From Thalassiosira profunda (Eukaryota > Bacillariophyta > Thalassiosirophyceae > Thalassiosirales > Thalassiosiraceae), in the NCBI GenBank assembly GCA_036939355.1, contig JALLAP010000550.1, forward strand, positions 1-16,954: 16,954 nt of DNA, given 5' to 3'. The position numbers were made by a program, and so were the translations under genes. The notes beneath the pieces were generated by a model that saw nothing but the letters and a program-made list of their open reading frames with translations, searched no databases and had not been told where the DNA came from. How positions within the stretch are numbered: the stretch's first letter is position 1; the number at the start of each line of letters is the position of its first letter. Shown one piece after another: positions 435 to 16,473 of the stretch.

Positions 435-2030
435 TCAGTCTGACTTCTTCTTCTGCTGCCGCCGTCGCTTGCTGCGCGCCTTGTTCTTCGCCTTCTTCGC
501 CACCGCCACCGACGCCTTCTGGCTTGTTCTGCTGGAGTCACCGTTCAGAAAGGCATCGACTTTCAGCCGCAGCCGCTTCCGCGCAATCTTTCGATTCTGC
601 TGCAGGGACCTCGTTTCCTGGCACTCCACACGGACCTGGGTCGGAAGGTGGACCAGTATCACCCGATTCGAGGTCTTGTTGACCTTTTGCCCGCCCGCGC
701 CGGATCCTTTTGTGAATTTCTCGTCCATCTCGTCCTCGTTCAGCTCCGGCAGTGCAGGCTGGCCTGCGTCGAAGGATGGGGTCGATCCACTATCTCCCAC
801 CGACCTTTTGATGACCTGCTCCACCTCATTCAGTATCTCCTCTCGCAATAGATCGTTGGGCAACAGAGCCACCAGATCGGAGAACAGATACAAAAAGCCG
901 GTAATGTCTGGGAAACCAGCCCCATCAGACGCTGCTTCCTGGCCGTCCGCTGATTGTTCTTCATCCTCCCTTTTGGCGTCGTGATACAAGCCCATCACCT
1001 TTTTCACGTAATCTCTGACGCTCTCTCTGTCCCACTCGTCGTGCATCAACTGCGACGACAGATCCTTTAGCACGCCCACCCTTCGTTCCTCGAGTATGGC
1101 GACCAATTCTTTCAGTATCTCCGCCTGCCATTGCCGATTTCTCTCTTCCCTCGCCTCCTTCTCCCTCTTCCACTCGTCGTACGTTTCGAGGACTTGATCG
1201 ATCGTCTCCTTCGAATTCATCGACCCGAACACGCAATCCAACCTTCGCCCTTTGTCCCATACCGTGCGATCGAGGTATTTCACCGCCTCTATCCGGTGTT
1301 CCGGCAGCGCGAATGCAAATTGCGTCTCCTTGCCGGAAATGGAGTCGTTCGGCGCGTCGAAGGGCGTTTCGCACAGGCTGTCCTCCACCCGATCGTAGTG
1401 CACGACGGAGAAGGACGAAGATGGAAGAGTTGTATCCCACTTGATGCGGCGCAGTACCTCCTTCACCGGAGTCAGCCTTCCACTGGCGGTTGCATCTCCC
1501 TCGTCGTCGGACTCCTCCCGACTTTTTACGCTGCCATCTGCAAATAGCCGAGCGTAGGCGGTGCTGTCCACGTTCGTGAGCTTCTTCAGCCGAGCCTCGA
1601 CTCCGTGCATGCCCCTCCCCAGAAGCGACGCGAGGCGGACGGTGGATAGGTGTTTGTTGTCGTACAGCAGCCGATCGTCTTCCAACATCCACTCCCGGTA
1701 TATGTTTTCCATTGTGAGTGCATCAGCTTTGTCCTCGATCTCAACATCAACCGAACTGGAAGCGTATCGAGCACTCGGACATGGTGCATGTTGATGTGGG
1801 CGAGTACAATAGGATGCAATCAACAAATTGCAATTATGCGACGATGATTGTCGCGTGGCTATTGGCGGTGCATGTATTGACAGCGAGCGTCCCGGAGCTG
1901 CAAACGCTCGTGCGCATTGCAATCGAGACAAGAGCGGCAGCGCCAGCATTGTGGTGATGGCCAGAAGATGTCTTCTCCTGATGGCAGATGATGCGTAAGT
2001 GAGTGCACCAGCTGCGCGCCTTCGTTTCAT
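435..2030 (-). CDS. Plastid-targeted MJ1316 (DUF504)-GGQ fusion, putative ribosome-rescue peptidyl-tRNA hydrolase
   Basis: The protein has 531 residues if it starts at the first in-frame ATG (2030); the frame is open further upstream but only from a TTG. Residues 20-42 are a signal peptide after basic residues, ending ARA|FAAP, the diatom-type plastid junction (Phe43), followed by a Ser/His-rich transit region to about 100. Residues 109-163 resemble a SANT/Myb-like helical module (LASLLGRG, then VEARLKKL). Residues 186-270 match MJ1316/DUF504: EVLRRIKWD, then YDR, then LPEHRI, then TVWDKGRRLDCVFGS. Residues 275-410 are mostly helical and charged. Residues 437-495 are a class I release-factor GGQ domain (GSGAGGQKVNKTSNRV, GGQ at 446-448; then QETRSLQQNRKIARKRL) closest in wording to MTRFR/C12orf65-type rescue factors, and a Lys/Arg-rich tail follows, as in that family. 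There are no codon-recognition domains. Inferred role: release of peptides from stalled plastid ribosomes. The gene is divergent from the DNA glycosylase gene at 2273. Confidence 0.85.
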   Translation of the reverse strand: MKRRRAAGALTYASSAIRRRHLLAITTMLALPLLSRLQCARAFAAPGRSLSIHAPPIATRQSSSHNCNLLIASYCTRPHQHAPCPSARYASSSVDVEIEDKADALTMENIYREWMLEDDRLLYDNKHLSTVRLASLLGRGMHGVEARLKKLTNVDSTAYARLFADGSVKSREESDDEGDATASGRLTPVKEVLRRIKWDTTLPSSSFSVVHYDRVEDSLCETPFDAPNDSISGKETQFAFALPEHRIEAVKYLDRTVWDKGRRLDCVFGSMNSKETIDQVLETYDEWKREKEAREERNRQWQAEILKELVAILEERRVGVLKDLSSQLMHDEWDRESVRDYVKKVMGLYHDAKREDEEQSADGQEAASDGAGFPDITGFLYLFSDLVALLPNDLLREEILNEVEQVIKRSVGDSGSTPSFDAGQPALPELNEDEMDEKFTKGSGAGGQKVNKTSNRVILVHLPTQVRVECQETRSLQQNRKIARKRLRLKVDAFLNGDSSRTSQKASVAVAKKAKNKARSKRRRQQKKKSD

Positions 2031-2270: not shown

Positions 2271-2334
2271 AGATGAAGACGCCGTGGCAATTGACCTTCC
2301 TCGTCCTCGTCCTCATCATCCTCGCATCCATTGA
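2233..2334 (+). promoter_or_regulatory. Upstream ORF 2, overlapping the first ATG of the glycosylase
   Basis: A 33-codon frame starts inside the left arm of the hairpin (ATG at 2233) and stops at 2332-2334, out of frame with and across the start codon at 2273. There is no ATG between its stop and the ATG at 2420, so ribosomes reinitiating after it would next meet Met50 of the glycosylase frame. Confidence 0.35.
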
Positions 2335-3865
2335 GGGGTCCACAACAAAGGCTGACACATCTGCGTTTGTTCCCTATAGTCACATCCGCCCCTCCGCCGC
2401 CCTCACACCCTCCATCAGAATGGTGGAAGGCCACTCAGTCCACCGCATTGCCTCGCGCTTCCGCGCCCAACTCGTCGGGCGGAAGTTTGCCGCGCGCTCG
2501 CCCAATGGGCGCTTCGCCGATGGCGCGTCAGCCATCGACGGGCGGGTGCTGTCCCGCATGGAGGCGGTGGGGAAGAACCTGTTCGCCTTCTTCGGTGGCG
2601 GCGGCGAGGAGGAGACTGTGGTGCACGTGCACTTTGGCATGAGCGGCGCGTGGGCCGTCTTCGATACGTTGCTCGAGGATGAGCCGGAGGTGAAGCCCAC
2701 CACGCGCCTCCGCCTCGAAGAAATCCCGGGCGCATCGTCGAAGAATGCTACGAGGTTTGTGACGCATCTCTCAGCTATGACGGTTGCCCACTCAGACATG
2801 TCGCTCTATACTTCCAAGAAGCTATCGCTTGGCGAGGATCCTCTTAGACCCGATGCCGATCCGCACGCCCTCTATGAAAGGGTCTCTAAGTCAAAGAAGA
2901 GCATCGGGCAGCTTATTATGGATCAGAGCTATTTCACGGGGCCGGGGAACATCTACAGGGCCGAGATTCTGTTTCTTGCGGGCGTGTATCCGACCACGCC
3001 GGGGAATGCGCTGGACAGGCCGACGTTCGACCGCATCTGGGCAGCCACGGTATCTTTGCTAAGGCGAGGATACGATACCGGCAGCATCCTCACGGTGGAT
3101 GCCAAACTGGATCCGGAGGTGGCAGCTCGTGGTGAGAGGAGGTACATCTACAACAAAAGTTCGTGTGCGAGGTGCGGCGGACGGGTGAGCTCGTGGGATA
3201 TGTCCGGAAGGACTTGTTACTCTTGTGAGGGCGGTTGCCAGCCCAAGATCAAGGCGGAGGCGAAAGCGCCGAGTGGCGACTCCAGCAAAAAGGTCGTGGC
3301 AAAGGAGAGTAAGGGCAAGAATCAGGTGAAGAAAGAGAAGCCGCAGCACGTGCCATTCATCTCCCACTGTGCTCCGATCAACTACCGCCAAAGGCTCGCT
3401 AAGGGCGGCGCCAAGGCGCTCACTGTTGCTGAGATCCGATCCACCATCGAGCAGATGACAGGTGGGTCTTCGTCTGAGTTTCTTCCTGCAAAAAGCGCGA
3501 GGAAGTCCGTGCACGTGGAGGCACTCGACAATCTGCTTCAGCAGCAGAAGGGAACGAAATCTCTGAAGGGTGACACGAGTGTGAAGGCTGCAAAGCCGCT
3601 GCCGCCGCCGCGGGTCAGCGCCGAGGACGCCGCGCGCGAGAAGGCCACAAGCGGCGAGAACCGGGCCGTGGAGCATGTCGCGGAGCTCTCGCGGGAGCAG
3701 GCCGTCAAGGCCATTACGGCGGTGACCCCATCGCCAGGTGCCGCTGGTGGGACGAAAAAGTCCAGGAAGAAAGCGACCGGGAAGAGGGGCAGCAGTGTTG
3801 CAAAGGAGGAAGGTGTTGGCGGAAAGAGGAGGAGCAGTCGTCGCAAATTGAACTACGATGCATGA
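2273..3865 (+). CDS. Fpg/Nei-family DNA glycosylase/AP lyase (endonuclease VIII-like) with plastid-type presequence and long basic tail
   Basis: The protein has 530 residues from ATG 2273, or 481 from the in-frame ATG at 2420 (Met50). The enzyme core starts at Met50 with MVEGHSVHR, equivalent to the usual N-terminal MPEG of this family; its residue 2 is the catalytic amine, here Val. Other landmarks are GRFADGASAIDGR, the GKNLF lysine, VHVHFGMSG, and an H2TH motif at 211-236 (IGQLIMDQ, then GPGNIYRAEILFL). A zinc finger at 298-322 has C298-x2-C301-x16-C318-x3-C322. The wording is closest, from memory, to actinobacterial Nei-type enzymes. Residues 1-49 are a signal peptide plus TSAFVP, a plastid-type junction. 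About 200 extra C-terminal residues are Lys-rich and end in KRRSSRRK-like basic clusters that could act as a nuclear signal. Inferred role: base excision repair of oxidised pyrimidines or purines. The gene is convergent with the CX9C gene, 60 bases away. Confidence 0.88.
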   Translation: MKTPWQLTFLVLVLIILASIEGSTTKADTSAFVPYSHIRPSAALTPSIRMVEGHSVHRIASRFRAQLVGRKFAARSPNGRFADGASAIDGRVLSRMEAVGKNLFAFFGGGGEEETVVHVHFGMSGAWAVFDTLLEDEPEVKPTTRLRLEEIPGASSKNATRFVTHLSAMTVAHSDMSLYTSKKLSLGEDPLRPDADPHALYERVSKSKKSIGQLIMDQSYFTGPGNIYRAEILFLAGVYPTTPGNALDRPTFDRIWAATVSLLRRGYDTGSILTVDAKLDPEVAARGERRYIYNKSSCARCGGRVSSWDMSGRTCYSCEGGCQPKIKAEAKAPSGDSSKKVVAKESKGKNQVKKEKPQHVPFISHCAPINYRQRLAKGGAKALTVAEIRSTIEQMTGGSSSEFLPAKSARKSVHVEALDNLLQQQKGTKSLKGDTSVKAAKPLPPPRVSAEDAAREKATSGENRAVEHVAELSREQAVKAITAVTPSPGAAGGTKKSRKKATGKRGSSVAKEEGVGGKRRSSRRKLNYDA

Positions 3866-9483: not shown

Positions 9484-9904
9484 CTTGGTTCGGCGGGGCT
9501 GAGCGCTTGGCTGACGGTGAACGAGTGGGTGCAACGAGGTATCAACAGAAACTATCGAAGAAAAGGGAACCACCGAGCGCACAGGATGGTAGCAATCGAC
9601 GGAGCTGTCCCCTACTCTGATGAGGAGGCGAGGGGCGGCTAGGACAGGGCGTGGGACGTGGGATGCCAGGGTTGCGGAGGGAAGGGGGAAGGGAAGGTGG
9701 CACCCCCACACCTGGCCCTCCCGCAGGTAGGTACGATACGTAGTACGGAGAGTGGCGTAGTACGGCGGAATCAGTACCAGTTGTAAGTACAGTGTTTCTT
9801 TCCGGCGGCGCCAACTTTTTGGCGCCTCCGAGAGCCGTCATTGCAAAGAATTGCAGCCCTCGCCTCCCCTCTGGCTCGCCACCCTCCACACAACGTCAAC
9901 GACA
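9484..9904. promoter_or_regulatory. Shared divergent upstream region (AKR7 / WD40)
   Basis: The 421 bases between the two start codons contain open frames but no supportable gene. A 10-bp direct repeat CGTAGTACGG lies at 9739-9748 and 9756-9765. A strong palindrome with an E2F-type sequence lies at 9807-9826, about 80 bases before the WD40 ATG. CATTGCAA occurs at 9839-9846. Confidence 0.45.
9807..9826. promoter_or_regulatory. Palindromic E2F/DP-like site
   Basis: GGCGCCAA (9807-9814) and TTGGCGCC (9819-9826) form a perfect 8-bp inverted repeat around a 4-base centre. The plus strand reads TTTGGCGC at 9818-9825, matching the E2F consensus TTTSSCGC. Function is inferred from consensus only. 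Confidence 0.4.
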
Positions 9905-11411
9905 ATGGCCGCGCTCATCCCCGCCGATAGCACGGATACAGTGGCAGAGCCACTCGGCAACGCCGAGCCGCAAAACAACGAAATCCGGCCCAATGCATTC
10001 CGCGAGGCGTCGACTCTCCACTCGGCGTTCTTCAACCGCCCGCTGCCCACCTCCTCCGACGCGGCCGCCGCCAATGGCAGCGCGTTGTCCTCCAAGCGGC
10101 GGCCCGCGCCCAAAAACGAGCGCCTCTGCATGGGAGGCCACCGCGAAACAATCTTCGGCGTCGCCTTCTCCCCCGACGGCAAGTACCTCGCGTCGGCGTC
10201 GCAGGAATCGAGCGTGTGCATCTGGGACGTGGCCTCCCACCGCCTCGCGGCGCGGCTGTCCGACGGATTGGACGTCGAGTACGAGTGCCTCCGGGTGGCG
10301 TGGCTGACGCCCAGCGGGGAGGCATCGGAATCCGATGCGGGGGAGAAGTACCTGCTGGCGTCGGCGGGGGCGGACGGCATCGTGCGGCTCTGGTCGGGCG
10401 CGGGGGAGGGGAAATTGGACTGGCGGTGCGCGGGCTCCCTCGATCATTTTACGATTGATCAGGATGTAGACGAGAGCGGGACCACATCCCACGAGAAGGA
10501 TCGGCCTCAAATCTACGCATTGCAATTCCTGCGAGGCACCGGCGACGAGGGGAACGCGACATTGCTCACGTCGGCCAATGACACAATTTATCTCTGGAAC
10601 GTCGTCGACGACAAGGGGACAGAGTCCTCGAACGGCGCGGCGAAGCGCAGAAATTTTGTGTCCCATTCCTCCATCTGCTTTGGGCACCTGGACGATAGTC
10701 AGGAGGCCAACCAATTCGGGGGACCACGAAACCCCAACAACGAATTGTACGTGTTCGATGCCTCCTACAGCGACTCTAGCGGTTTGCTCGCCGTGGCTTT
10801 ATCCGATGGGACGTGCCGAGTATTGCCCCTGTTGGGCGACTCGTTCGGCAAAGACCAGTGCGTGCTGAGCCTCCCTCCGGGGTATTTTCCGGGCCGAGCG
10901 GGGCACCTCACCGCACTCTCGTGGGACATGTCGGGGACGAGGCTGGCCACTTGCATCGCCAGCGGGCGGGTGGTGCTGTGGCTGCTGCAGGCAGTGAGCA
11001 ACAACGGAAAGCAAGTTTTGCATCCGTCGTGCATATCTGTGCTTGAGGGCGGTCACGACGCTGGCCGGCCGCTGTTTGGTGCGAGGTACTNTGCATCCGT
11101 CGTGCATATCTGTGCTTGAGGGCGGTCACGACGCTGGCCGGCCGCTGTTTGGTGCGAGGTACTGCGGTGGGGAAAAGGAAGAACTGCTGATGTCCTGGGG
11201 TGTGGACGGCAAAGTGTGCGTTTGGGATTCATACTCCGTGGGTGAAGTTCTGTCTCCACTGTGCACCTTGGTTTCGCGTTCCGACTATCCAATTTATGCA
11301 TTGGACATCGCAACGAGCGGAGCGGGCGAGAACCAGAAAGTTCACATTGCGGCCGGCGGAGGAACAGACGGAGGGTTCCTCGGCGTGCCTGTCTACCTCT
11401 ACGATGTGTAG
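9905..11411 (+). CDS. WD40-repeat protein, reading frame broken by an assembly join
   Basis: The start at ATG 9905 has a favourable context (ACA before, G after); the open frame upstream to 9851 has only a TTG. The N-terminal 75 residues are low-complexity. WD40 repeats follow: GHRETIFGVAFSPDGKYLAS, then CIWDVA; LLASAGADGIVRLWSG; TLLTSANDTIYLWNV; GHLTALSWDMSGTRLATC, then VVLWLL; and, after the break, LLMSWGVDGKVCVWD. I do not recognise the orthologue. At 11091 there is a single N, and the 72 bases before it (11019-11090) are repeated exactly after it (11092-11163), shifting the frame. Without those 73 bases the frame is continuous to the TAG at 11409-11411 and encodes 477 residues. WD40 propellers are scaffolds, so no specific role is claimed. 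The gene is divergent from the AKR7 gene and convergent with the lumen protein gene. Confidence 0.85.
11019..11163 (+). repeat. 72-bp exact duplication flanking a single N (assembly artefact)
   Basis: Copy one is 11019-11090, the ambiguous base is 11091 and copy two is 11092-11163. The copies read identically by eye. The pattern is what arises when two overlapping contig ends are placed side by side instead of merged. Confidence 0.92.
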
Positions 11412-13344: not shown

Positions 13345-14112
13345 TCAATTCATCTCATCCGCTTTGATTGCCTCAATGGATCGTACTTTCAACGAAAAGG
13401 GGAAGATGCCGGTGCCAAAGGTTTCAACGGGATTGCTCTCGCCATTGCTCAGCTTCAACGAAAGCATAAACCCAATCTCTTTCACTTGCGTCGGATCCAG
13501 CTTGGCATCCGTATTGACTGGGCCTCCCTGCAACGAAGGCGTTAACGAATCGAGCGTTAAGGTTGCCGTTTCTTCCACCCCCGCCGTCGTCGGAAGATCT
13601 TTCTGCCACGAGGGACTGCGCCGGCTCGGACCAAATGCACTCTTGTTGCCGTCCGAGAAGAGCACCTTGTAAGTTTTGCCGTCCCCTAGATAGCATATCC
13701 GCACCGCGGCCGTGTCCGACGGCAACCCCCCTTCGACGGGCGAACGGATGCTGCAGAACCCTCCGCCCTGGGTGTTGATGTGTCCCGCGAAATGCAATTC
13801 TTCTGTGCCTTCGGCTGACGAGTGGACTGTCTCGCTCTGTCCGCCCATCACCCCATCGTCGAGGCGATGCCATCTCAGTGCGCGGCCGAGCAAGTTCAGG
13901 CTGGCTGCGGAAGGATTCAAGTCGATCGCAAAGATGAGAGAAGATGAGAATTGCAAAGTGCATGGGGAAGTGACATCACACATCACCCATCACTTACGCA
14001 CTGCATTGCGCTCGTTCGCAGCTCGATCATAACGCGTTGCTCGAATCACTTGTCCCATTGTTGTCGCTATCAAAAGAAGGAAGAGAGCACGGCGCCTGCC
14101 AGATGATACCAT
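13345..14112 (-). CDS. CIA30-domain protein (NDUFAF1-related fold) with N-terminal signal, one intron
   Basis: Two exons (14112-13998 and 13904-13345) encode 224 residues. The CIA30 hallmark follows the splice junction: LRWHRLDDGVMGGQSE, then LHFAGHINTQGGGFCSIRSP, with later YKVLFSDGN and VKEIGFMLSLK. CIA30 proteins are galactose-binding-like beta-sandwiches. The founding members assemble mitochondrial complex I, while other members act in plastids or elsewhere. The N-terminus (GRRRALFLLLIATTMGQVIRA) looks like a secretory signal peptide rather than a mitochondrial presequence, and there is no clear Phe plastid junction. The start at 14112 is the ATG that gives a compact signal. The frame is open upstream to 14433, including a further ATG-type region that overlaps the divergent promoter and seems less likely. 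Location is uncertain. Confidence 0.82.
13905..13997 (-). other. Intron of the CIA30 gene (93 nt, phase 1)
   Basis: On the minus strand it begins GTAAGT and ends TTCCGCAG. An in-frame TGA directly follows the donor, so retention truncates the protein when reading from the upstream exon. Splicing joins NERNAV to the PSLNLLGRALRW segment in frame. Confidence 0.83.
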
Positions 14113-14478
14113 GCCTTGTGTGCAAGCGCCGCGAGAGCAATGGAAGAGTTTTCCCGTGGAAGAAGTGAGGCGGGCGAGGAGAGCGAGGAGAGGAGAGTGG
14201 AGCTTTCGTAGATACTTAGAGCAGTACACAAAACAAAGGATATCTCGATCCATTGCAAAGGCTGCAGCTGCCGCGCTCCCCTCCCCACCACCTCGTTCAT
14301 CGAGAACTCCGTCACGGCCGTCACTCGCTCGTCGTTGTTCGTTCGTCGTCATTCCTCTCGCAGTTCCTCGCTCCGAGCGCCACGTCCGCCGCCGCGGAAC
14401 TGCCACGCCGCGCGCTGCCCACCCTGCCCTCACTTCTTGGCCGTCATTGCAATAATAGGCAAAGTTCTCGCTCGACGA
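14113..14478. promoter_or_regulatory. Shared divergent upstream region (CIA30 / COG1453-type AKR)
   Basis: The 366 bases between the start codons show no gene I can support. CATTGCAA occurs at 14249-14256 and CATTGCAAT at 14446-14454, the second about 25 bases before the plus-strand ATG. No TATA box is evident. Confidence 0.4.
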
Positions 14479-16473
14479 ATGCTAATCGGGGGTATCCGTG
14501 GCCTCTTATTTGCAACTTCTTGCATCCTCCTCTCCACCATGCACCGTGCAAAGAGTCTGCTCCTCTCCGACGCGGCCTTCTTCACCGCCGCGGCATCGAG
14601 CCTCACCGACCAGGAGAAGGCGCGCGGCGGCCTCGCTCGGCAGTACAGCAACTTCGACCTCACCTCGAAGAGCGGCGACAACGAGCCTGTGATTGCAGCA
14701 GCAAAAGACTTCCTCCGCACCGCGTGTCCCGAGCTGCTCGCCGTCCTCGAGGCGCACGGGGATCAAGATGGCGCGCGCGACCGACTGGTGAAGATCGGCC
14801 GCAATATCAACGCCACCCTGCGCTACGGGCAGGAGGTCCTCGAACGGAAGGAACGCGGGGAGGCGGCGTTGATGGACGTCTGGTCTCCCGAGGAGGAGGA
14901 GGAAGTGTGCAACGAGCTGGGACGGAAGCTCAAGTCGGACGCGAGCTTGCAGCGCCTCGTGCGGGAATGCAAGGATCTGGCCAAGGTCCTGGCGTCGCCG
15001 GTGAAAGTGCCTACCGTGCGATATGGGCGCACGGGGATCCAAATGCCCATCGTTACCCTCGGGTGCATGCGGTTTCAACAGTCGTGGAACCGGGGCGGGA
15101 AGCCCATCAAATCGGCGGAGCAGATTGAGGAGGACTGCCAGAGTAACCTCGTCGCAATCCTCAGACACGCTATTCACTGCGGCGTCAACCATATCGAGAC
15201 GGCCCAGGGATACGGTTGCTCTGAGCTGCAGATCGGTATGGCGCTAAAGACTTTGTTCGACGAAGGAGTTTGCAAACGCGAAGACCTCATAATTCAGACG
15301 AAAGGTGGCATCTCCGCGAGCACCAGCAAATCCGACTACAAGTCGAGCATCCTGCAGCAGATCCAACGTCTGGGCGTGGGCTACGTCGATTTGTTCAGCG
15401 TCCACGGACTCAACACCGACGATCACTGCGAATGGTTGTTCGATCACGGCGAGAAGGGCAACTTGATCGAGGCGGTGCGCGAGCTCAAGGCGGAGGGCAA
15501 GATTCGCTGGATCGGCTTCTCCACGCACGCGCCGAGCCATGTGATCAAGAGGGCGATCGAGACGGATGCGTTCGACTACCTGAATCTTCACTACCACTTC
15601 ATGGGCTCGTACACTGCCAGCGGAGACGGAGACGAGGTTGACGCCCAATTGGAGAACATTCGACTTGCTCGCAAACACGATATGGGAGTGTTCGTAATCT
15701 CGCCGTACGACAAAGGCGGCCGCATGTACACGCCGTCCCATCTTACGCGGGAGTTGATGCTGCCTGAGATGGAGCCTATGGAGTACGCGTCGTCATGGCT
15801 TTGGAATCACGAGAAACATTGCCAGGGCGGCGACTCCGCCCCCATCCACACGATTGTGTGCGGAGCCGCTCGTGCGAGTGATTTAGATCAGCCTGTCATG
15901 GCGGCGATCCGTTACCAAACGACGGAGGCGCAGGAGGAGTTTGCTGCGGTGTCGCGCCGCATCCAGGAAAGGAAGGACCGCGTGCTTGGAACTGCTGGCT
16001 GGCAGGAGACGTGGCGTGTGGGGCTGCCGAATTATACCCAGAGCCAGAAGCACGGCTTCCAAATTGGCAACATGGTGTGGCTGTACAACGCGATCCACGT
16101 CTATGGAATGCTCGACTTTGCAAAAGACCGGTATGCCACATTGGTGGGCAATTCGGAGAAGTGGGATGCGGAGAAGAGCTTCAAGGAGAACGTGTTCGCA
16201 AGTCCCGCCTTTCACTGGATGCCGGGATGTGGCTACCATCCATCCTATGACTACAGCTCCGAGCTGAGCAATGTTCCGGAGAAGATCAGAGCTCGTGTGC
16301 TTGAGGCAATGGAGTTCGTCCACGAATGGTGCTGTCCTGTGAACTCCAAATCAATGGCAAAGGAGGCAGGAGCCGATGAGAAGAAGGAGGAGGAAGCGGA
16401 AACCAAAATGGTTCCACTGGAGTGGCAAATTGCGTATGATATGCGTCCCTGGACGGCCTTCCCGGAGCGTTAA
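14479..16473 (+). CDS. Aldo/keto reductase, COG1453 type, with a 175-residue N-terminal extension
   Basis: The protein has 664 residues from ATG 14479, or 644 from ATG 14539, which sits in a much better context (CCACC before it). The frame above 14479 opens only from a TTG. Residues 1-20 from the first start are hydrophobic and could be a signal, while the second start lacks it. Residues about 30-175 are helical, charged and unrecognised. The reductase barrel begins near 178 (RYGRTGIQMPIVTLGCMRF). The tetrad is E240 and Y245 in HIETAQGYGCSE, K275 in QTKGG and H309 in FSVHGLN, with Glu in place of the usual Asp as in cyanobacterial-type relatives I recall. GFSTHAP, then FDYLNLHYHF and ISPYDKGGRMY confirm the subfamily. 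The C-terminal 150 residues (WLYNAIHVYGMLDFAKDRY) match the helical tail of COG1453 proteins, but the cysteines of a ferredoxin-like domain are absent. Substrate unknown. Confidence 0.87.
   Translation: MLIGGIRGLLFATSCILLSTMHRAKSLLLSDAAFFTAAASSLTDQEKARGGLARQYSNFDLTSKSGDNEPVIAAAKDFLRTACPELLAVLEAHGDQDGARDRLVKIGRNINATLRYGQEVLERKERGEAALMDVWSPEEEEEVCNELGRKLKSDASLQRLVRECKDLAKVLASPVKVPTVRYGRTGIQMPIVTLGCMRFQQSWNRGGKPIKSAEQIEEDCQSNLVAILRHAIHCGVNHIETAQGYGCSELQIGMALKTLFDEGVCKREDLIIQTKGGISASTSKSDYKSSILQQIQRLGVGYVDLFSVHGLNTDDHCEWLFDHGEKGNLIEAVRELKAEGKIRWIGFSTHAPSHVIKRAIETDAFDYLNLHYHFMGSYTASGDGDEVDAQLENIRLARKHDMGVFVISPYDKGGRMYTPSHLTRELMLPEMEPMEYASSWLWNHEKHCQGGDSAPIHTIVCGAARASDLDQPVMAAIRYQTTEAQEEFAAVSRRIQERKDRVLGTAGWQETWRVGLPNYTQSQKHGFQIGNMVWLYNAIHVYGMLDFAKDRYATLVGNSEKWDAEKSFKENVFASPAFHWMPGCGYHPSYDYSSELSNVPEKIRARVLEAMEFVHEWCCPVNSKSMAKEAGADEKKEEEAETKMVPLEWQIAYDMRPWTAFPER

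Follow-up and report, generated by a model that had tools for sequence, protein, structure and literature searches.

The best described counterparts of the locus analysed here are GGQ-bearing release factors that act in ribosome rescue or alongside RNA repair. Human C12orf65 (MTRFR, mtRF-R) acts with MTRES1 on split large subunits; in the available part of the same account, release by C12orf65 was undetected when 55S or 70S ribosomes had no codon in the A site, and truncated mRNA is the substrate handled by ICT1 (PMC8786322). An alpha-i insertion serves as the criterion separating C12orf65 from ICT1/ArfB class 1, according to the accessible text of PMC6514570. In the PrfH-RtcB2 system, directed against colicin E3, a GGQ factor is coupled to cleaved RNA or its repair, as the available sections of PMC9223846 describe; PrfH retains a version of the codon-recognition domain, and prfH-rtcB is presented in the accessible text as a patchy conflict system (PMC6514570). 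The MJ1316 domain, in turn, is described as recognising RNA 2',3'-cyclic-phosphate ends (accessible text of PMC6514570 and works cited there). Closest of all is a C12orf65-MJ1316 fusion that was reported by Burroughs and Aravind (2019), and for which release coupled to organellar RNA damage was proposed (PMC6514570, section 2.5, Figure 4C).

Beyond that paper, our literature search returned no further description of the MJ1316-C12orf65 pairing, nor did it return a description of diatom plastid ribosome rescue by a release factor, a subject on which the searched literature says little. Here we describe such a fusion gene from a diatom. We tentatively propose that its product is a plastid large-subunit peptidyl-tRNA hydrolase recruited by the end of a cleaved RNA, a reading that we regard as plausible while rating it slightly short of probable.

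The gene lies in the window, by which we mean the whole 16,954-nucleotide stretch of Thalassiosira profunda DNA that was analysed, on contig C549, one of the 1366 that make up a 21.8-Mb assembly. The gene (435..2030, minus strand; protein P0001) is defined by its open reading frame, its Pfam matches, and its relatives. It encodes 531 amino acids in one frame running from 2030 to 435 with no internal stop, from an ATG at 2030 to a stop codon at 435-437, and the frame contains no N; an in-frame TTG lies upstream of the ATG, at 2063. The uninterrupted 531-residue frame of the original prediction is therefore real, with the qualification that its minus-strand location had been left unstated: frame 1 of the plus strand contains several stops across 435-2030.

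The gene stands head-to-head, about 240 bases away, with a DNA repair gene of the formamidopyrimidine-DNA-glycosylase type (2273-3865, plus strand; PF06831, PF01149). Elsewhere in the window, two genes on opposite strands carry aldo/keto reductase domains (PF00248; 8308-9711, minus, and 14335-16473, plus), and a gene of the CIA30 (complex I intermediate-associated protein 30) family lies at 13345-13986 (minus strand; PF08547, E 2.4e-24). At 11019-11163, an exact 72-base direct repeat with one N between its copies interrupts a WD40 frame (ORFs 9851-11119 and 11043-11411); it is most likely a contig-join artefact.

A protein search scored 7998 candidates, 337 of which had E <= 1e-3; we describe the best 120 of these 337, mostly close kin of the window protein. 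The best relative has 65 per cent identity (E 4e-202). By precomputed Pfam annotation, both domains occur together in 105 of the best 120, MJ1316 alone in 14, and RF-1 alone in one. All twelve organism names readable among the best 120 of 337 are those of diatoms, and they include Odontella, Mediolabrus, and Attheya, confirmed in the taxonomy, as well as Thalassiosira, Skeletonema, Cyclotella, and Conticribra, which we take to be diatoms. Transcriptome collections supplied three of the relatives (P0005, P0009, and P0065), in which both domains are therefore encoded by a single transcript.

Alignment A1 (85 rows) combines the window protein with 84 of the 105 relatives that have both domains; the other 21, for the most part shorter pieces or near-duplicates, were set aside by visual inspection. 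Each of the 85 rows matches both Pfam families. The MJ1316-GGQ pairing is confirmed as real and common to many diatoms. That the assembly misjoined two genes, an idea to which the join artefact at 11019-11163 lends some colour, has a negligible probability in our view: the frame is free of N, and relatives of identical architecture, the transcriptome entries included, refute it. A 340-residue relative with 37 per cent identity (P0231) has the N-terminal block described below, MJ1316, and part of the helical block, with RF-1 unmatched; it may be a truncated, unfused, or non-diatom form and hints at a range wider than diatoms. A search of prokaryotic genomes gave 52 pattern matches, none of which was confirmed, and in viral contigs 14 loci matched the GGQ region only.

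The C-terminal part of the protein (residues 429-529; 444..746, minus strand) is an RF-1 peptidyl-tRNA hydrolase domain, with a significant PF00472 match (E 4.4e-20; 72.2 bits against a cut-off of 35). Its catalytic GGQ motif (residues 446-448; 687..695, minus) is invariant in all 85 rows of A1, and a lysine- and arginine-rich C-terminal tail spans residues 497-531 (438..542, minus). The nearest solved relative is human C12orf65/MTRFR (7a5h; E 8.9e-26, 93.8 bits), followed by a C12orf65 homologue (2rsm); the next, an RF1, scores only 41.6 bits. Aligned with human C12orf65 and with an ICT1-like protein of the same genome, the fusion lacks the alpha-i insertion between the last two strands. To judge from these comparisons, the GGQ part is of the MTRFR/C12orf65 type, as had been predicted.

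Pfam finds RF-1 and MJ1316 only, and hence no codon-recognition or GTPase-interacting domain; the prfA and prfB models match just the GGQ stretch and the adjoining tail, far under their cut-offs. Two other identities were considered and rejected: PrfH, whose equivalog TIGR03072 reaches 45.6 bits against a cut-off of 166.65, and ArfB/ICT1, whose equivalog NF006718 reaches 28.8 bits against 100 and whose alpha-i insertion is absent.

The MJ1316 domain (residues 187-260; 1251..1472, minus strand) is likewise significant, with a PF04457 match covering profile positions 2-75 of 75 (E 4.3e-13; 50.2 bits against a cut-off of 26.3). Archaeal MJ1316 ORFs for comparison were present in 4 of 14 archaeal genomes searched, and a profile-to-profile comparison of the diatom domain with these four proteins gave E 1.3e-10. 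Among three diatom and four archaeal sequences, the only invariant columns are R214, P243, H245, and R246, and the same four residues are invariant in 85 of 85 rows of A1. Such a pattern would be expected of a ligand site that has been kept, and the alignments suggest that these residues form a candidate site. The binding of cyclic-phosphate ends by MJ1316 is itself a prediction from the literature; a sequence search found no solved MJ1316 structure.

The domain continues into a conserved extension (residues 261-292, R.D.VFGSM.G.G.TID.V...YDEWK in A1; 1155..1250, minus). PF02976 (MutH) is weakly matched by 35 of the 85 rows at E <= 10 (best E 4e-4) over residues ~225-292, a stretch that takes in the latter half of MJ1316 as well as the extension.

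The conservation profile resolves four blocks, namely residues 105-165, 186-292, 293-412, and 425-528, the third of which contains a variable acidic insert. The original prediction had spoken of a helical linker between the two domains; that wording understated the protein, since residues 105-165 and 293-412 are conserved blocks in their own right. In the N-terminal block (residues 105-165, W..EDD..L....LAS.LGRG..GVE.RL.KL...S.AY.RLF; 1536..1718, minus), the W, D, L, GRG..G, R, and K positions are invariant or nearly so in A1. The block looks like a small helix-turn-helix or HTH/Myb unit, in appearance only: a profile search of solved structures gave a single partial match to a c-Myb repeat (E 0.92), and 24 N-terminal-block pieces matched seven Pfam families, all weakly. 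These were HVO_A0114 (5 pieces, best 0.012), TatA_B_E (4, 0.011), HTH_24 (2, 0.11), ORF11CD3 (2), and HTH_20 (0.0014), Rap1_C, and DUF809 (1 each); the window protein's own N-terminal piece had no Pfam match.

The helical block (residues 293-412; 795..1154, minus) is recognised in A1 by the motifs LSS.L, YV, and SDLVALLP..LRE.IL. Its matches to solved structures, RIB57 (E 0.0096) and weaker ones, were judged to be chance. ZNF598 is a ribosome-collision sensor, and the Pfam model PAH_ZNF598 is named after it. This model matches 6 of the 85 full proteins at E <= 10, the best at 22.9 bits against a cut-off of 25 (profile 2-41 of 83), and 6 of 10 cut helical pieces at E <= 1 (best 0.0016), with the matches keeping the same register (P0070, P0098). 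We keep the likeness as a lead, not an assignment, because it stays below the cut-off, because neither P0001 nor its cut helical piece is matched (nor is the fusion gene in a six-frame search at E <= 1), because a general PAH protein from this very genome does as well against the model (22.6 bits), and because the six-frame search at that lax threshold gives chance matches in 2 of 14 control genomes. A search for RING_ZNF598 gave no match in any control genome.

Conservation across the blocks bears on the strongest rival to our reading, in which MJ1316 is a mere RNA-binding tether that, together with the extra blocks, holds the GGQ domain in place at the large subunit or its tRNA, much like MTRES1, with no sensing of ends. 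Parts of the extra blocks are conserved about as well as MJ1316, as a fixed constitutive particle would predict; human mtRF-R, as the available text describes it, works with MTRES1 on the split subunit (PMC8786322); and the gene is common to many diatoms, unlike prfH-rtcB, described in the accessible text as patchy (PMC6514570). Against this, 85 of 85 rows keep the four residues that the domain has in common with stand-alone MJ1316 proteins of archaea, which suggests that the ancestral ligand site still matters. We regard the tether as unlikely, though it is the alternative to be taken most seriously, and prefer recruitment by a cleaved-RNA end. That many diatoms have the fusion speaks for a housekeeping function and against a conflict system of sporadic occurrence, which bears on the 2019 proposal (PMC6514570).

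At its N-terminus, the protein has a hydrophobic, signal-peptide-like stretch (residues 22-42) followed by ARA|FAAP, a plastid-type bipartite signal within residues 1-46 (1893..2030, minus strand) that is also visible in the N-termini of relatives. We searched the relatives, with thresholds of our own setting, for [ASGVTC]x[AGSC] followed by F, W, Y, or L after a hydrophobic stretch. Usable N-termini, defined by a Met start and >= 45 residues before the first block, were available for 64 of the 85 rows, and 21 were dropped. The F form (xxA|F) occurs in 44 of the 64, against 5.6 expected from shuffled N-termini, and any form in 54 against 14.8; the rows are mutually related, and some matches lie away from the likeliest cleavage site. 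The predicted plastid presequence is thus present in most usable relatives, an enrichment that supports plastid import of the fusion without proving it.

Ten of the 64 have no qualifying motif and another 10 only a non-F form, so mitochondrial or dual targeting is possible, and the fusion could serve the mitochondrion or both organelles as simply the diatom form of mitochondrial mtRF-R. Human C12orf65 is mitochondrial, according to the available part of PMC8786322; this genome, which is apparently incomplete, yielded no separate stand-alone C12orf65; and no clear second diatom C12orf65 appeared among the 25 of 60 short RF-1 relatives that were inspected. Many of these 25 have remnants of the helical block before the GGQ motif, as expected of fusion fragments. 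The hydrophobic stretch followed by xxA|F in so many usable rows speaks against a mitochondrial address, which we find improbable.

The same genome encodes a second codon-independent GGQ protein, an ICT1/ArfB-like one of 247 residues (L006:701-1444, minus strand, contig C1337), in which an insertion precedes the last strand and the N-terminus is of plastid type (GVHA|F). Only three RF-1-family matches were found genome-wide, which makes the assembly look incomplete; anything said about partners is accordingly weak, and absences (of SmpB, of a second C12orf65) mean little. No SmpB was found in this assembly. A tmRNA search gave four matches of 73-90 bases, all under the gathering score; at the two that were scanned, on contigs C17 and C12 (the latter up to its last part), ARAGORN calls tRNAs. 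Contig C17 also carries an rps4-like gene, presumably of plastid type, and plastid DNA seems to be present in the assembly as well. On another contig lies a partial RtcB gene in two pieces (profile 255-426 of 426), which we count in favour of a connection with cleaved RNA; its tie to the fusion is putative.

According to the original prediction, MJ1316 could detect the cyclic-phosphate end of a cut mRNA within a stalled 70S plastid ribosome, which the fusion enters to release the chain. A GGQ factor with a basic tail and no codon-reading domain is in keeping with this, as is the description of MJ1316 as recognising cyclic-phosphate ends (accessible text of PMC6514570). The model nevertheless fits poorly with the behaviour of C12orf65, which uses split large subunits and whose release activity went undetected when the A site of 55S or 70S ribosomes was empty, truncated mRNA being the task of ICT1 (available part of PMC8786322); moreover, the same genome encodes the ICT1/ArfB-like protein described above, with its plastid-type N-terminus. 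We consider this model quite improbable. On the division of labour given below, MJ1316 would be more likely to meet a cut tRNA or rRNA, or a remnant of mRNA lying outside the channel, than an mRNA end in the A site.

In our preferred reading, recruitment to plastid large subunits by a cleaved-RNA end, the nuclear-encoded diatom protein would most likely be imported into the plastid and act there as an MTRFR/C12orf65-type hydrolase on large-subunit complexes that hold stranded peptidyl-tRNA. By analogy with the human factor, its GGQ loop would be expected to enter the peptidyl-transferase centre and its basic tail to hold rRNA. MJ1316, with the N-terminal and helical blocks, would bind the 2',3'-cyclic-phosphate end of an endonuclease-cut tRNA, rRNA, or mRNA, and release would thereby be recruited or favoured where RNA is cut. 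The simplest division of labour would have the ArfB-type protein clear non-stop 70S ribosomes and the fusion act on large subunits. For the pairing of a GGQ factor with cleaved RNA, PrfH-RtcB2 offers a precedent, as far as its available description goes (PMC9223846). Since a release domain is linked to a predicted RNA-end sensor, organellar monitoring of RNA cleavage at the ribosome becomes testable in genetically tractable diatoms.

A bolder extension, and in our judgement a speculative one that is probably wrong, would make the protein a dedicated four-part plastid quality-control factor composed of an HTH-like block that binds nucleic acid, an MJ1316 cut-end sensor, a PAH-like block, and an MTRFR-type GGQ hydrolase. 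If true, the factor's task would be to remove peptidyl-tRNA from plastid large subunits specifically at sites of RNA cleavage, its PAH-like block would be distantly related to that of ZNF598, and both the cytosolic collision pathway and PrfH-RtcB2 of bacteria would have in it an organellar counterpart.

Compared with the described systems, the fusion shares with human MTRFR (PDB 7a5h chain C) a GGQ domain free of a codon-reading domain and of the alpha-i insertion, a basic tail, and 49 per cent identity in the GGQ region. The human protein differs in being a 166-residue mitochondrial chain with MTRES1 as its partner, as the available text has it (PMC8786322), and in having no MJ1316, N-terminal, or helical block. 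The ICT1/ArfB-like protein of the same genome is also a GGQ hydrolase that acts independently of codons, and it too has a plastid-type N-terminus and a basic tail, yet it carries the insertion between the last strands and is only 36 per cent identical to the fusion in the GGQ region. Stand-alone archaeal MJ1316/UPF0248 proteins have the homologous domain (E 1.3e-10) with its R, P, H, R core, whereas they are single-domain proteins of about 79-86 residues as used here and the diatom form adds the conserved C-terminal extension. PrfH-RtcB2 resembles our proposal in that a GGQ factor works together with the repair of RNA cleavage (available sections of PMC9223846); it differs in being bacterial, in consisting of separate genes, and in that PrfH keeps a version of the codon-recognition domain.

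The nearest match is the fusion of Burroughs and Aravind (2019), which has both domains in one polypeptide and the same idea of coupling to RNA damage. The original prediction had been made in unawareness of any description of the pairing; as the accessible text of that paper makes plain, both the pairing and the idea have been in print since 2019 (PMC6514570). That accessible text mentions neither an organism nor a particular organelle for the fusion, and it describes no additional block, N-terminal or helical. The examples behind it may well be diatoms, and what the present locus apparently adds is the plastid address and the conserved blocks at residues 105-165 and 293-412.
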